A DNA stretch of 64,000 bases from Tunturiibacter gelidiferens (GTDB lineage: Bacteria; Acidobacteriota; Terriglobia; Terriglobales; Acidobacteriaceae), in the NCBI RefSeq assembly GCF_013410115.1, contig NZ_JACCCV010000001.1, positions 1,798,001 to 1,862,000 on the forward strand. Direction: 5' to 3'. A model generated the notes under the pieces. That model did not search any database, had not been told where the DNA came from, and was given only the letters and a program-made list of their open reading frames with translations. Positions 18,468-23,201 of the stretch are shown piece after piece. Made by a program: the position numbers and the translations under genes. Within the stretch, counting starts at the first letter, position 1, and the number at the start of each line of letters is the position of its first letter.

Positions 18468-19007
18468 GTGACTGGAAAAGTGAGCGAGAAGAAGACGAAG
18501 ATTCATGAGGTAGTGAAGTGGCCGGATCCGGTGCTGGCGAAGCCGGGTGCGACGGTGACGGTGTTCGACGCGAAGCTGAAGAAGCTGGTCGACGAGATGT
18601 TCGAGAGTATGTATGCGGCGCAGGGGATTGGGCTGGCCGCGCCGCAGATTGCGATCTCGCAGCGGATTACGGTGATCGATGTGAGCTTCAGGAAGAATCC
18701 GGAGGAGAAGATTGTGCTGATCAATCCGGAGATTGTGGAGCGCGAGGGCAAGCAGGTGGAGGAGGAGGGGTGCCTGAGTTTGCCGGAGATTCGTGAGAAG
18801 GTTTCGCGCGCGGAGTGGGTGAAGGTGAAGGCGCAGGATGTGACGGGGAAGTGGTTTGAGATTGAGGGGACGGAGTTGCTGGCGCGAGCGATGCAGCATG
18901 AGATCGATCATCTGGAGGGGGTGCTGTTTATTGATCGGTTGAGTCGTTTGAAGCGGGATCTGGTGATTCGGAAGATAAAGAAGCTCATCAAAAACGGAGA
19001 ATGGTGA
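18468..19007 (+). CDS. def: Peptide deformylase
   Basis: Metalloenzyme removing the formyl group from the N-terminal methionine of new proteins. The three motifs are present: GIGLAAPQ (53-60), EGCLSLP (100-106) and HEIDHLEG (144-151), giving the Cys/His/His metal ligands and catalytic Glu. At 179 residues the length is normal for type 1 enzymes. It starts with GTG right after the aroC stop. fmt, the enzyme adding the formyl group to initiator tRNA, follows after a 214-base gap holding one of the long inverted-repeat elements. Confidence 0.96.
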   Translation: MTGKVSEKKTKIHEVVKWPDPVLAKPGATVTVFDAKLKKLVDEMFESMYAAQGIGLAAPQIAISQRITVIDVSFRKNPEEKIVLINPEIVEREGKQVEEEGCLSLPEIREKVSRAEWVKVKAQDVTGKWFEIEGTELLARAMQHEIDHLEGVLFIDRLSRLKRDLVIRKIKKLIKNGEW

Positions 19008-19010
19008 TGG

Positions 19011-19208
19011 TGTCCTGCCGGACGGGCCCGCTACGCGCGGCGCGCCCACTTCGTGGGGGGTATACCTTGTCTTGGTGGGATGAGCGGCTTGGGTCCTCGC
19101 GATGCTCGGGCCGACCAGCGGGAGGATCTACGCGGATGATGGTGCCTTGACCGGTATACGCGTCACGAAGTGACCGCCCTCCGCGCAGGAGGCCCGTCCG
19201 GCAGGACA
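19011..19208. repeat. Long inverted-repeat hairpin-string element, copy A
   Basis: 198 bp with perfect 17-base ends TGTCCTGCCGGACGGGC and GCCCGTCCGGCAGGACA. Inside the left end is a hairpin CCGC-TACGC-GCGG, then CCCAC-TTC-GTGGG (other copies have GTCAC-TTC-GTGAC, a compensated change). The right half has GTCAC-GAA-GTGAC and CCTCC-GCGCA-GGAGG. It fills the gap between def and fmt. The central part matches copy B closely. Confidence 0.92.
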
Positions 19209-19221
19209 GAGGATTATCAAA

Positions 19222-20154
19222 ATGAAATTAGTTTTTTGTGGCACGCCGGAGTTTGCAGTACCTACGCTTCAAGCCGTGATTGCAGCAGGGCATGAGGTTG
19301 CGCTGGTGGTGACGCAGCCGGATCGTGCGGCGGGGCGCGGGCTGGAGGTGCATGTTCCTCCGGTGAAGCAAGCGGCCGTGACACACGGTTTGCCTGTGGT
19401 GCAGCCGGAGAAGATCAAGAACAATCTGGAGTTGCGCGCGCGTTTGGAGGAGATTGCGCCGGATGCGATTCTTGTTGTTGCGTATGGGCGGATCATTCCG
19501 CAGTGGATGCTGGAACTGCCGCGGTTTGGGAATATCAATCTGCATGGGTCGCTGCTGCCGAAGTATCGCGGGGCTGCTCCGATTCAGTGGGCGGTGGCTT
19601 GCGGCGAGGTGGTGACGGGTGTGACGACGATGCGGCTGGATGCGGGTCTTGATACGGGCGATATGCTGCTGGCGGCGGTGTGCCCGGTGGGGTTGGAGGA
19701 GACGGCGGTGGATGTGTATGGGTGTCTGGCTCCGCTGGGCGCGGAGCTGATGGTGGAGACACTGAGGCGGCTGGAGGCGGGGACAATCTGTCCGGAGGAG
19801 CAGAACCACTCGCTGGCTACGCTGGCTCCGATTCTGAAGCGGGAAGATGGGCTGGTGGATTTTTCCCGGTCGGCGAAACAGATTTATGACAGGTGGAGAG
19901 GGTTTCAGCCGTGGCCGGGCGCACATACGACGCTGCGGGGGAAGAAGCTGATCGTGTCGAAGATGGGGATTTGTAGTGGGCGCTCGGTTGCTGCGGGGGA
20001 GTTGCTGGTGGACGGAGAACAGATGCTGGTTGGTTGCGGTAGTGGGACGGTGGCGGAGTTGCTTGAGCTGCAGATGGAGGGGAAGAAGCGGATGAGTGCT
20101 GCTGAGTTTTTGCGTGGGTATCAGGTGAAGAGCGGCGAACGGTTGGGGCTATGA
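19222..20154 (+). CDS. fmt: Methionyl-tRNA formyltransferase
   Basis: Formylates Met-tRNA of the initiator using 10-formyltetrahydrofolate. The 310-residue protein has the start MKLVFCGTPEFAVPTL, the formyl-transfer site INLHGSLLPKYRGAAPIQW (Asn and His of the catalytic triad), and LDAGLDTGDML with the catalytic Asp. The C-terminal tRNA-binding domain begins around residue 210. It starts 13 bases after repeat copy A and overlaps rsmB by four bases. The def/fmt/rsmB neighbourhood is common in bacteria. Confidence 0.97.
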   Translation: MKLVFCGTPEFAVPTLQAVIAAGHEVALVVTQPDRAAGRGLEVHVPPVKQAAVTHGLPVVQPEKIKNNLELRARLEEIAPDAILVVAYGRIIPQWMLELPRFGNINLHGSLLPKYRGAAPIQWAVACGEVVTGVTTMRLDAGLDTGDMLLAAVCPVGLEETAVDVYGCLAPLGAELMVETLRRLEAGTICPEEQNHSLATLAPILKREDGLVDFSRSAKQIYDRWRGFQPWPGAHTTLRGKKLIVSKMGICSGRSVAAGELLVDGEQMLVGCGSGTVAELLELQMEGKKRMSAAEFLRGYQVKSGERLGL

Positions 20155-21536
20155 AGGACGAGTCGACGTCTGGAGGAGGAAAACGGAAGCGGGGTGCTGG
20201 TGCGGGAAAGCCTGGTGCGGTGAAGGCGGTTTCGGGTAAGGCGGTGGTGGCGCGGAAGAGGCCTGTGTCGGCTGGGCCTACGGCTTCGGTGGAGGCTGCG
20301 GTTGCGAAGATAACGCCGGCTCGGCTGGCTGCGTTTGAGATTTTGAAGCTGGTGGGGGAGAACAAGGGTCATAGCGACGAGTTGCTGCATTCGCCGCGGG
20401 TGGATGGCTTGTCGCCGGAGGATCGGAACCTGACGACTGCGCTGGTGATGGGGGTGCTGCGATGGCAGATTGCGCTGGATGCGCGGGTGAGGGGGTTGCT
20501 GCAGAGGCCGGAGCAGAGGCTGGCGGAGCCGGTGGCGATTGCGCTGCGGATGGGGGCGTTTCAGTTGCTGCATCTGGAGAGGATTCCGGCGCATGCGGCG
20601 TTGAGTGAGAGCGTGGAGTTGTGCAGGGCAGCGGGGGAGCCACATGCGACGGGGATGGTGAATGCGGTGCTTCGGAAGCTGGCGGGGACGCAGAAGCCGG
20701 GAGTGCGGATGCATGAATCGGTAGCGGCGTTTGCGGAGAGGCTGGGGCATCCGCGATGGCTGGTGGAGCGATGGGTGGCGGCTTATGGGCGCGAGGCGGC
20801 GTTGAAGATCTGTGAGGCGGATCAGCAGGAGCCGGCGGAGGGTGGGATGTTTGTGGAGCGCGGTGGGGATTGGCCGGTGATGGATGATGGGTCGCGGCTG
20901 GTGGGGGAGATTGCTGCGGCAGCTATGCCTGAGGCGAAGAGAGTTTGGGATTGCTGCGCTGCCCCTGGGGGGAAGACTTTGATTTTGGCGAAGCGGTTGG
21001 GTGGTGCGGAGATTGTGGCGAGTGATGTGAGTGTGAAGCGACTGGCTCAGGCGCAGGCGAGGCTGCGGCGGTATGCGTATGCGGAGCGAGTTAGGTTTTC
21101 CGTGGCCGATGCGTCGGATGCTAAGAGTGTTGCGGGGGAGTTTGATCTGATTTTGTGCGATGTGCCCTGCTCGGGGACGGGAACGATGGCGGGGAATCCG
21201 GAGATTCGGCATCGGCTGAAGGTGGAGGAGTTTGTGCGGCAAGCGGAGAGGCAGAGGACGATTTTGAAGGGGGCGTTGAAGCGGCTGGCTCGGGGTGGGC
21301 GGCTGGTCTATTCGACTTGCTCGCTGGAGGCGGAGGAGTGTGAGGGTGTGGTGGATGCGGTTGTTGGGGCGGGTGGGGTGGTGAGGGTGCCGGTGGATGG
21401 GGTGATGGCGGAGCTTGCGGAGCGTGGGGTTTTGAGTGGGGAGATGGGTTCGGCGGTGCGGGATGGGGCGCTTCGAACGCTGCCTGGTGTGCACGGGGGC
21501 GATGGGTTTTATGCGGTGATGTTGGAGCGGAAGTAG
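20151..21536 (+). CDS. rsmB: 16S rRNA (cytosine-967 C5)-methyltransferase
   Basis: Methylates C967 of 16S rRNA with S-adenosylmethionine. The 461-residue product has a Lys/Gly-rich leader (about 1-40), an NusB-like RNA-binding domain (about 45-180) and a Rossmann methyltransferase domain. The SAM motif is DCCAAPGGKT; the two cysteines of the mechanism lie in DVPCSGTG and YSTCSLEAEE. It overlaps fmt by four bases (ATGA). The last 29 codons, from 21450, are duplicated downstream at 21628-21714. Confidence 0.96.
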   Translation: MKDESTSGGGKRKRGAGAGKPGAVKAVSGKAVVARKRPVSAGPTASVEAAVAKITPARLAAFEILKLVGENKGHSDELLHSPRVDGLSPEDRNLTTALVMGVLRWQIALDARVRGLLQRPEQRLAEPVAIALRMGAFQLLHLERIPAHAALSESVELCRAAGEPHATGMVNAVLRKLAGTQKPGVRMHESVAAFAERLGHPRWLVERWVAAYGREAALKICEADQQEPAEGGMFVERGGDWPVMDDGSRLVGEIAAAAMPEAKRVWDCCAAPGGKTLILAKRLGGAEIVASDVSVKRLAQAQARLRRYAYAERVRFSVADASDAKSVAGEFDLILCDVPCSGTGTMAGNPEIRHRLKVEEFVRQAERQRTILKGALKRLARGGRLVYSTCSLEAEECEGVVDAVVGAGGVVRVPVDGVMAELAERGVLSGEMGSAVRDGALRTLPGVHGGDGFYAVMLERK

Positions 21537-21576
21537 GCGGTTGAATAGGTAAGGCGGTTTGCGCGGTGCGCGAAGG

Positions 21577-21602
21577 CCCACATCTCAAAATCGAGATATG
21601 GG
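21577..21602. repeat. Short palindromic repeat (CCCACATCTC hairpin)
   Basis: CCCACATCTC and GAGATATGGG pair with one mismatch around the loop AAAATC, followed by GCACCC. It lies between rsmB and the duplicated rsmB tail. The trailing GGGCACCC also follows the hairpins near 21.76 and 22.1 kb, which suggests one repeat class. Confidence 0.6.
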
Positions 21603-21627
21603 CACCCGGCACCCAGAGGAGTTGAGT

Positions 21628-21714
21628 TCAGCGGTGAGAGATGGGGCGCTTCGGACGCTGCCTGGAGTGCATGGGGACGATGGGTTTTATGCGGTGATGT
21701 TGGAGCGGGCTTAA
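21628..21714 (+). pseudogene. Duplicated 3' end of rsmB
   Basis: These 87 bases repeat the last 29 codons of rsmB (21450-21536), including a stop codon. Of the first 81 bases 74 are identical, and of the seven differences only one changes an amino acid (Gly to Asp); the final sense codon differs completely (Lys to Ala). The remnant is preceded by GAGGAGTTGAG, which keeps the frame. The synonymous bias shows that this tail came from another functional rsmB allele. Confidence 0.85.
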
Positions 21715-21744
21715 GAAGACGGTTCGCACTGCGGCGCCAGTGCC

Positions 21745-21910
21745 CTATTGCGATGAGACCGCGAAAGGATGGGGCACCCCGGGAATCGCTTCAGCCTAAG
21801 GAGTACAGGCAACGTCGGACATAGCTGGGGAATAACCAAAAGCAAATACAGGGATCCTTCGACTGCGTGGCTCACAAAATGCCGTGAGCCACTTCGCTCA
21901 GGATGACATG
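21745..21910. repeat. REP-like hairpin cluster
   Basis: Near 21745-21780 a weak hairpin TTGCGATGAGACCGCG lies before GGATGGGGCACCCC. At 21852-21910 an ATCCTTCGACT...GCTCAGGATGACA unit encloses a perfect nine-pair stem GTGGCTCAC/GTGAGCCAC. These intergenic hairpins belong to the same general class as those near 13.2, 26.1 and 63.1 kb. No gene is seen from 21715 to 22160. Confidence 0.65.
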
Positions 21911-21943
21911 GTTTTTGTGTGGGGTGGGAGAAACCAGCCGCGG

Positions 21944-22050
21944 CAACGACAACAACAACAAAGACAACAACAAAGACAACAACGACGACAACAACAACAA
22001 CAACGACAACAACGACAACAACGACAACAACGACAACAACGACAACACAA
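21944..22050. repeat. Imperfect CAA/CAACGA triplet microsatellite
   Basis: 107 bases made almost wholly of CAACAACGA and CAACAACAAAGA units on the plus strand. All frames stay open through the tract on both strands, which creates false low-complexity reading frames (Thr, Asn or Gln runs; Val, Cys or Leu runs on the other strand). It is flanked by hairpin repeats and lies in a gene-free gap. Confidence 0.9.
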
Positions 22051-22076
22051 AGGATTGCTGGGAAGAGGAATACATT

Positions 22077-22109
22077 CCCATCCATCGCGATGAGACTGCG
22101 ATGGATGGG
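22077..22109. repeat. Perfect 12-bp stem hairpin
   Basis: CCCATCCATCGC and GCGATGGATGGG pair perfectly around GATGAGACT, then GCACCC follows. The loop is nearly the same as in the decayed copy near 21750. It sits 52 bases before the stop end of the PASTA gene and could end its minus-strand transcript, but no T run follows. Confidence 0.65.
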
Positions 22110-22160
22110 GCACCCGATGGCTTGGGGCTGGTTGGGATTTCAAGAATAGGGAACAGACAA

Positions 22161-22997
22161 TTAATCGGTGAGGGTGATGTGGACTGGGTCGCCTTTGACG
22201 ACGCGGTGGCCGGCGGGTGGGGTTTGCGCGATGACGGTGCCGATGGATGAGACGGTGTGGGCGATGGGTTCGGTGAAAGACGGTGTGGTGGCGCTGGGTG
22301 GGGATTGAGATGTGAGTGGGGCGGAGTCTGAGGTGGAGTTGAGGTTGAGGTCTTCGGCGCTGGCGATGTGGAGGCCGGCGGATGCGGCTCTTGCGGCGGC
22401 AGCGGTGAGGGTGAGGCCGGCGAGGGAGGGCATGACGAAGGCTTCGGCGGAGTTGGTGGATTCGGGGTCGCTGAGGAGGAGGCTGACGCGGGGACGGTCC
22501 ACACCGATGGCGTTGGGGGTGGGGGTTTGGGCGATGATGACGCCGGGTTCGCCGGGGGCGGCGATGTGGGAGACGGCACCGAGTTCGAGGCCGAGACGGC
22601 GGATGTTGATGGTGGCGGTGCGCTCGGTCTGGCCGAGGAGGTCAGGGATGGCGACTTGTTGCGCGCCGAGACTTTCGGTGACGCGGACGGGCCACTCGCG
22701 GCGGACGGTGAGCCCCGGGGCGGGGGATTGTGCGAGGACACGGCCGGGTGGGGTGTTGGGAGAGTAAAAGCGGTTTTCGAGGCTGAGGACGAGGCCCAGG
22801 GAGCTGGTCTGCTTGCTGGCTTCGGAGAGGGTGAGCCTGGTGAGGTCGGGGACCTTGACCTCGTGGCCGTGGATGGCGAGGCGCATGGTGATAAAGGCGG
22901 AGACGAGCGCGACAGTGAGCATCGCGAGGGCGCCCAGAACGATGTTGAAGAAGCGATTGATGCTTCGGGTGACTTTTCTGGGGATTCGGAGCTTCAT
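22161..22997 (-). CDS. Membrane-anchored PASTA-domain protein
   Basis: 278 residues. A short basic N-terminus and one membrane helix (about 17-42) precede three PASTA-type modules: VPDLTRLTLSEASKQTSSLG, IPDLLGQTERTATINIRRLG and MPSLAGLTLTAAAARAASAG, each closing with an Ala-Gln-(Ser/Thr)-Pro-like segment. PASTA domains bind peptidoglycan fragments and usually sit on Ser/Thr kinases or penicillin-binding proteins. Here no kinase is attached, so it may be a stand-alone cell-wall sensor or scaffold. The third module is split by a Ser/Thr/Pro-rich stretch. Confidence 0.88.
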   Translation of the reverse strand: MKLRIPRKVTRSINRFFNIVLGALAMLTVALVSAFITMRLAIHGHEVKVPDLTRLTLSEASKQTSSLGLVLSLENRFYSPNTPPGRVLAQSPAPGLTVRREWPVRVTESLGAQQVAIPDLLGQTERTATINIRRLGLELGAVSHIAAPGEPGVIIAQTPTPNAIGVDRPRVSLLLSDPESTNSAEAFVMPSLAGLTLTAAAARAASAGLHIASAEDLNLNSTSDSAPLTSQSPPSATTPSFTEPIAHTVSSIGTVIAQTPPAGHRVVKGDPVHITLTD

Positions 22998-23017
22998 GCG
23001 TTTTCAGAGTATATCTT

Positions 23018-23201
23018 TGTCCTGCCGGACGGGCTCCCTGCGCGGGAGGCGGTCACTTCGTGACTTGTGTACCTTGTCTTGGTAGGATGAGCGGCTTGGG
23101 TCCTCGCGATGCTCGGGCCGACCAGCGGGAGGACCTTGGTTGATGACGGTGCCACGACCGGTATACGCGTCACGAAGTGACCGCCCCGCGCGTAGCGGGC
23201 C
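23018..23201. repeat. Long inverted-repeat hairpin-string element, copy B (right end lost)
   Basis: Left end TGTCCTGCCGGACGGGC is intact; then hairpins CTCCC-TGCGC-GGGAG and GTCAC-TTC-GTGAC. The right half has GTCAC-GAA-GTGAC and CCCGC-GCGTA-GCGGG but stops before the outer arm, seven bases from the stop codon of the TonB-receptor gene. Its centre is nearly identical to copy A. Confidence 0.9.

Follow-up and report, generated by a model that had tools for sequence, protein, structure and literature searches.

Organization of the rsmB Locus

The window analysed is a 64,000-nucleotide stretch of the genome of Tunturiibacter gelidiferens (G000; 5.29 Mb in 4 contigs, Edaphobacter/Granulicella group). 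On its forward strand, fmt is followed by rsmB (20151–21536), a working gene recognised by profile matches, whose product of 461 amino acids has RsmB as the best NCBIfam match (E 2e-72; 244 bits, below the model cut-off of 319) and exceeds the cut-offs of both Pfam models, Methyltr_RsmB-F and NusB. Named relatives found in the RsmB search include Edaphobacter lichenicola X5P2, M8UP22 and M8US30. The 3′ end of the gene, tail A (21440–21530), served as the reference copy of a repeat and is followed by the last codon AAG, the stop TAG and a short spacer (21531–21552), which are unlike the gene ends of the other species read. Palindromic repeat 1, with a few bases adjoining the next feature, occupies 21553–21617. 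It is succeeded by tail B (21618–21708), which repeats the rsmB 3′ end without being attached to a gene and has the last codon GCT and the stop TAA (21709–21714), and by palindromic repeat 2 (21718–21782), which belongs to a different subtype from repeat 1. All these features lie on the same strand, and tail B is offset by 178 bases from tail A. Further downstream there are more repeats and then a PASTA-domain gene on the opposite strand. An (AAC/GAC)n repeat at 21940–22055, behind tail B, shows a 27-base difference between G000 and the conspecific genome G065.

The similarity of the two tails extends over 91 bases with 9 changes (90% identity; E 4.6e-29 in a search within the genome), which is far beyond chance, and the presence of tail B, a second rsmB 3′ end without its gene, is real. 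Six of the differences are silent and three are replacing. A previous sequence-only reading of this DNA had counted seven changes in 81 bases, six of them silent, and these counts hold for 21628–21708 against 21450–21530 (silent changes at S, R (two in one codon), R, G and H; one replacing change, G to D); the repeat, however, starts earlier, at 21618, matching 21440, and the 10 extra bases carry two changes, both replacing (M to L and G to S). The palindromic repeat that the same reading had placed at the junction was found again as a repeat-family copy at 21554–21610, and a DNA fold is predicted there (21551–21616, −16.3 kcal/mol, z −2.84).

Distribution among Relatives

Among 30 loci (G000 and 29 relatives), G000 alone gave more than one match to either tail, and the other rsmB loci read have a single tail at the cut-off used. 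In 62 genomes of the genus, the whole 761-base region was matched only in G065 (96%). This genome has both tails and differs from G000 by one substitution in about 820 bases compared, namely CAC in tail A of G000 against CAT in G065.

Tail B might, as was suggested from the letters alone, be the remnant of a second, lost rsmB paralogue, and the only support for this is the presence of a gene end without a gene. A second full rsmB was looked for in G000, G002, G024, G028 and G031, and none was found; moreover, tail B begins 178 bases after the working gene's own end, directly beside this gene and parallel to it. We regard such an origin as very improbable. A partial rsmB-like stretch matching residues 314–409 and 436–460 was seen on another contig of G005 (C107, 556–973).

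Boundary of the Similarity at the Gene End

The agreement between the two tails runs to one codon before the stop, and beyond this point the last codon, the post-stop spacer and the palindrome subtype all differ. Tail A is followed by AAG TAG, a spacer and a palindrome of the CACATCTC type, and tail B by GCT TAA and then a palindrome of the GCGATGAGAC type; the sequences behind A and behind B align with each other only loosely, as palindromes. GCT is the final rsmB codon in G031, G063 and G064, as in tail B, and tail A differs from them all. Positions 21743–21779 of palindrome 2 share 94.6% identity with the repeat that follows rsmB in G063 and G064; in these genomes the palindrome of the B subtype lies farther from the rsmB stop, and similar copies also occur elsewhere. 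The last codon and the palindrome subtype are the only parts of the context of tail B that agree with G031 or with G063/G064. Judged by eye, the post-stop sequence of rsmB is mostly unalike between the species read.

These observations bear on a local tandem duplication, according to which the gene end, alone or with its palindrome, was copied next to itself by slippage or by microhomology at the palindrome. Selection would have maintained copy A while copy B drifted, and the palindromes would have been exchanged afterwards. If the end had simply been copied on the spot with the DNA that follows it, the match should go on past the stop, and the mismatched follow-ups argue against this. Orthologous alleles need no matching follow-ups, because post-stop DNA is mostly unalike between species. 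A continuous copy unlimited by gene boundaries was seen neither in rsmB nor in the DNA glycosylase gene described below, where the similarity likewise breaks off at the gene end; in each case, the additional 3′ fragment is found behind the intact gene and is oriented like it. A later replacement of the palindrome could have hidden a longer original copy.

Palindromic Repeat Family and Its Flanks

The palindrome core has 18 copies in the genome at no more than 3 mismatches. REP palindromes, as described in PMC3733652, are short hairpin repeats that are mostly intergenic, near gene ends, and sometimes intragenic. The repeats considered here resemble them in being short hairpins near gene ends and, in some cases, within genes. 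Copies in frame were observed within conserved protein genes, namely within rsmB of G063 (locus L146) and, by matching position only, of G064 (L145), as well as within moaE of G031 (L217, 1365–2105) and a GidA-family gene of G028 (L197, 1206–1682); they are comparable to intragenic REPs (PMC3733652) and to Rickettsia palindromic elements. Unlike RAYT-associated REPs, G000 gave no match (0) to the Y1 (RAYT-type) transposase model PF01797, which as a control was matched in 5 of 14 genomes. For this reason, and despite the resemblance to REPs, the repeats are not classed here as RAYT-driven REPs.

When 124 palindrome sites were surveyed, with sites common to related genomes counted separately, a flanking repeat of at least 35 bases was found in 7 rows with 81–93% identity, none of them identical: rsmB and the glycosylase gene (two genomes each), L183, L228 and L266. 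One of 124 random control sites had a flanking repeat, and the match was at another palindrome-like repeat. General target duplication at palindromes was rejected on the basis of these 7 rows in 124. In a second pass over 88 right ends, further scores above the best of 85 controls (30) were those of L217 (45), L013 (41), L197 (41), a second L183 end (39) and L080 (31). Three of these are accounted for in other ways, L217 by a repeat within coding sequence, L013 by a further palindrome and L183 by its tandem copy.

The insertion of a palindrome with a long target duplication (about 36 to 110 bases), visible in genes only where the frame was restored, would account for the position of the old end, which starts 0, 2 or 8 bases after the right end of the palindrome in three genes, and for the in-frame palindromes in rsmB of G063/G064, moaE and the GidA-family gene. 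The scarcity of flanking repeats, their imperfect identity and the lack of a Y1 transposase match in the genome make this explanation unlikely in our opinion.

A Second Case: Fpg/Nei-Type Glycosylase Gene

Of 24 palindrome loci in G000 whose two flanks were compared for repeats, L010 stood out; it contains the gene of an Fpg/Nei-type DNA glycosylase (Pfam Fapy_DNA_glyco and H2TH). Its end A is followed by the stop, a spacer of about 50 bases, a palindrome and, within 2 bases of the palindrome's right edge, end B, which has a one-base deletion. The double end is common to G000 and G065. A motif search revealed a single end in G031, G063, G064, G068, G002, G024, G066 and G076 (the motif missed G028), and in a protein search of 11 genomes, G000 and G065 were the only ones with an additional short match next to the gene. 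Full matches to the spacer, searched for as a trace of a donor in 62 genomes of the genus, were limited to G000 and G065, with partial hits of 20–38 bases in four other genomes (E 0.009 or worse); many species lie outside this sample, which makes the absence a weak one.

Behind end B stands TAGATAGCTGAG, and these approximately 12 bases are similar by eye to TAGACGGCTGAG in G031 and TAGACGGCTGA in G024; the sequence behind end A is unlike them. Judging from this similarity, end B looks to be situated in the ancestral downstream context. Over 108 positions, with the gap in B counted, the ends differ from each other at 14, A differs from G002 at 9, from G068 at 13 and from G031 at 17, and B differs from G068 at 11, from G002 at 14 and from G031 at 24. 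Each end is thus closer to a relative (A to G002, B to G068) than to the other end. The A–B differences cluster in three neighbouring codons that are variable among relatives (VAV in A, ARA in B and ARV in G068). Summed over seven relatives and without the gap, the differences add up to 109 in A and 115 in B. Since B is hardly farther from the relatives than A, it probably still served as a working end not long ago. For a local duplication with free drift of the second copy, so small an excess in B is unfavourable, as is the fact that A and B are not nearest neighbours. The G024 end, misaligned because of an indel (52 and 55 differences), was excluded from the sums and from the site-by-site listing; a tail tree in which A and B were ungrouped was set aside, because it still included this misaligned sequence.

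Substitutions and Distances of the rsmB Tails

Polarised with the relatives, the private changes of tail A are CGA, GGT and CAC, all silent, plus the last codon, and CAC is private to G000. The silence of all changes before the last codon is expected of a working gene. The private changes of tail B are TTG, AGT, TCA, AGA (two bases) and GAC, plus the stop TAA, three being silent and three replacing. The proportion of 3 changes in A only to 6 in B only corresponds to a constrained and a free copy and speaks for a tandem duplication.

The excess of silent changes between the tails had been taken in the sequence-only reading to exclude drift blind to codons, and for the private changes of tail B this argument is weak. 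In a neutral simulation, six random changes led on average to 4.0–4.2 replaced codons, and no more than 3 replaced codons appeared in 24–30% of the runs (P 0.24–0.30). As few residues unseen in other tails were obtained with P 0.11–0.16, and an equally good residue-frequency score, calculated against 43 other tail sequences, with P 0.04–0.07. The departure of tail B from neutral drift is thus marginal, and these values are compatible with codon-blind drift.

The comparison of both tails with the species tree, proposed earlier as a way to recognise the original one, gave no decision. Per 90 bases, the tails differ from each other at 9 positions, tail A differs at 7 from both G031 and G063, and tail B at 10 from each of them. 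In the tree of rsmB tails, which are too short for its resolution, A and B are not grouped together, and bootstrap values above 40% were found only for G063/G064 (98) and G068/G002 (72). Both tails read ATG TTG at a place where ATT or ATC, followed by CTG or TTG, is found in the nearest relatives. This shared feature suggests that A and B are sisters, as a tandem duplication would have it.

Local Duplications and a Possible Third Case

A gene of G064 encoding a DUF6321 protein also has its end followed by a palindrome and, directly at the right edge of the latter, by about 36 end-like bases. By eye, all codon changes in this ghost are replacing, and it is followed by a sequence resembling a decayed palindrome. 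Its near relative G063 has no such ghost; GCTGTTG stands at the same point there and is a possible microhomology. This case looks more like a local duplication and lends support to the same origin for the rsmB copy.

In 1.29 Mb of partly redundant, palindrome-rich sequence, 10 spaced pairs of at least 60 bases were found, and the protein-gene ends recognised among them, with loci L105, L195, L211 and L218 left out, are those of rsmB and the glycosylase gene; none of L183, L205 and L266, inspected in this set, is a protein-gene end at a palindrome. A sample of 464 kb (20 stretches of 20 kb and the window) gave 9 rows of local duplications, and among the pairs inspected (the first L302 pair and L304; two other L302 pairs, L303 and L306 were left out) there was no palindrome-side protein-gene end besides rsmB. 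Short local duplication is, therefore, ordinary in these genomes, which keeps the duplication explanation alive; palindrome-ended units duplicated elsewhere, with 95% identity in L183 and 87% in L266, also favour it. We consider a tandem origin of tail B a serious possibility, though less likely than allele replacement.

Several observations concern these duplications in their own right. In L304 (7604–7848), partial copies of the 3′ end of tRNA-Arg(cct), three by eye, lie just behind the gene without this palindrome, and one 82-base pair of them has 94% identity. Repeated units containing the palindrome include, along with L183 (1335–1743) and L266 (1266–1533), L105 (1353–2004, 98%). The units of L183 and L266 have the palindrome at the right end and consist of apparently non-coding DNA; thus, palindromes also border plain local duplications.

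Exchange Tracts and Ancestry Switches

The identity between G000 and G065, scanned in 300-base steps, is 99–100% at about 18.7–21.7 kb and 22.3–23.2 kb of the window, the dip between them being a length-variable repeat, and amounts to 92–97% upstream and 94–100% downstream of this fmt–rsmB tract. The stretch 18700–23200, containing fmt, rsmB and the PASTA gene, is nearly identical in the two genomes, the adjacent aroC showing 94.8%, and looks like a tract recently exchanged between conspecifics. At the glycosylase locus, the identity is 98.5–100% over the 3′ half of the gene, across the two ends and for 500 bases or more past them, up to the edge of the comparison, and 82–95% just upstream, falling to about 82% inside the gene. 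Recombination is active at both loci, which counts in favour of the allele replacement considered below. Since the tracts look recently exchanged between strains, the presence of the double end in both G000 and G065 gives no date for the event.

Switches of ancestry were sought in one glycosylase pair (G031/G002, G031/G068 being tabulated) and five rsmB pairs, uncorrected for the number of tests. Sites of the glycosylase gene that distinguish G031 from G002 stand at 64:36 up to position 865 of 927 and at 1:9 behind it, and 7 of 300 permutations were as strong. In rsmB, the similarity to G031 rises in the last 185–240 bases in comparison with G024 (1/200) and G028 (4/200); the switch is weaker with G063 (21/200) and is not clear with G068 (81/200) or G002 (166/200). 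These are modest signs of the import of 3′ ends, and a switch can also lie in the lineage of the relative.

Origin of the Second rsmB End

In our opinion, with a probability of about 0.55, the 3′ part of rsmB was replaced by a palindrome-bearing allele of a relative, and the old end was shunted downstream. Allele replacement had also been put forward in the sequence-only reading, and it is our best explanation too; the silent changes offered in its favour are a weak argument, and it is better supported by the edge of the similarity, the glycosylase case and the signs of ancestry switches near both gene ends. The incoming piece would have comprised its own gene end (ERK and the stop), a short spacer and the palindromic repeat. 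On the left side it would have recombined with the resident rsmB through homology, and on the right side it would have been joined, at or near the end of the palindrome, to a point in the resident gene some 95 bases short of the stop. Tail B, the resident end, would then have been pushed downstream of the new gene along with the DNA that originally followed it, and would now be dead. The right-hand joint may have formed by one-sided illegitimate joining or by a single crossover involving a small circle, of the kind proposed for rhs tips. We infer the donor, the singleness of the event and the way in which this joint arose, and the hairpin itself may have stopped the strand exchange. An import with a homologous anchor on one side and a right-hand joint at the palindrome explains the edge at the gene end, the differing follow-ups, the palindrome at the joint and the second case.

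Several facts stand against the replacement. No donor was found, and no rsmB tail read outside the species ends in a single AAG. The ATG TTG common to both tails hints at their sisterhood, and the private changes (3 in A and 6 in B) fit neutral drift of B. The rsmB switch of ancestry is weak or absent in the comparisons with G063, G068 and G002. Glycosylase end B is farther from G031 than end A (24 against 17), and short local duplications occur elsewhere.

It is conceivable, though rather doubtful at present, that palindromes behind genes act throughout the genus as the right-hand joint for swaps of 3′ ends, each swap bringing in the end of a relative's gene with its palindrome and leaving the old end directly behind it. 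If so, past allele replacements can be read from the housekeeping genes themselves. Homologous allele replacement is normally scarless and its junctions are hard to read; an old end left in place would show where one event occurred, and a hairpin at the joint would connect repeat elements with the places where recombination tracts stop. The interest of these findings is that housekeeping genes are involved and that one genome has two scars beside one repeat family, with a possible third in a relative, which makes the idea testable by a genome-wide screen for duplicated palindrome-side gene ends.

Comparison with Known Systems

Among the literature matches listed, there was no report of palindromic repeats at displaced gene ends in Acidobacteria. 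The rsmB scar is regarded here as a variant of the displacement described for rhs and T6SS loci. At rhs loci, as presented by Jackson et al. 2009 (PMC2935791), an incoming gene end displaces the resident one, the old end and a piece of the core are left downstream, and the proposed mechanism is a crossover with a circular molecule on which core and tip are carried. The similarity consists in the old gene end left as a dissociated downstream fragment, and the difference is that rhs tips are distinct and exchangeable, whereas both rsmB ends encode the same conserved end of a housekeeping rRNA methyltransferase, with a palindrome at the joint.

For the T6SS of Vibrio cholerae, Kirchberger et al. 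2017 (PMC5361080) describe the displacement of effectors with retention of immunity genes and propose that homology-facilitated illegitimate recombination shifts the old 3′ gene downstream. The proposal is similar to the origin preferred here for the rsmB scar in having a homologous anchor on one side and an illegitimate joint on the other; whole effector–immunity modules arrive at T6SS loci, whereas rsmB would have received a near-synonymous allele of no evident benefit.
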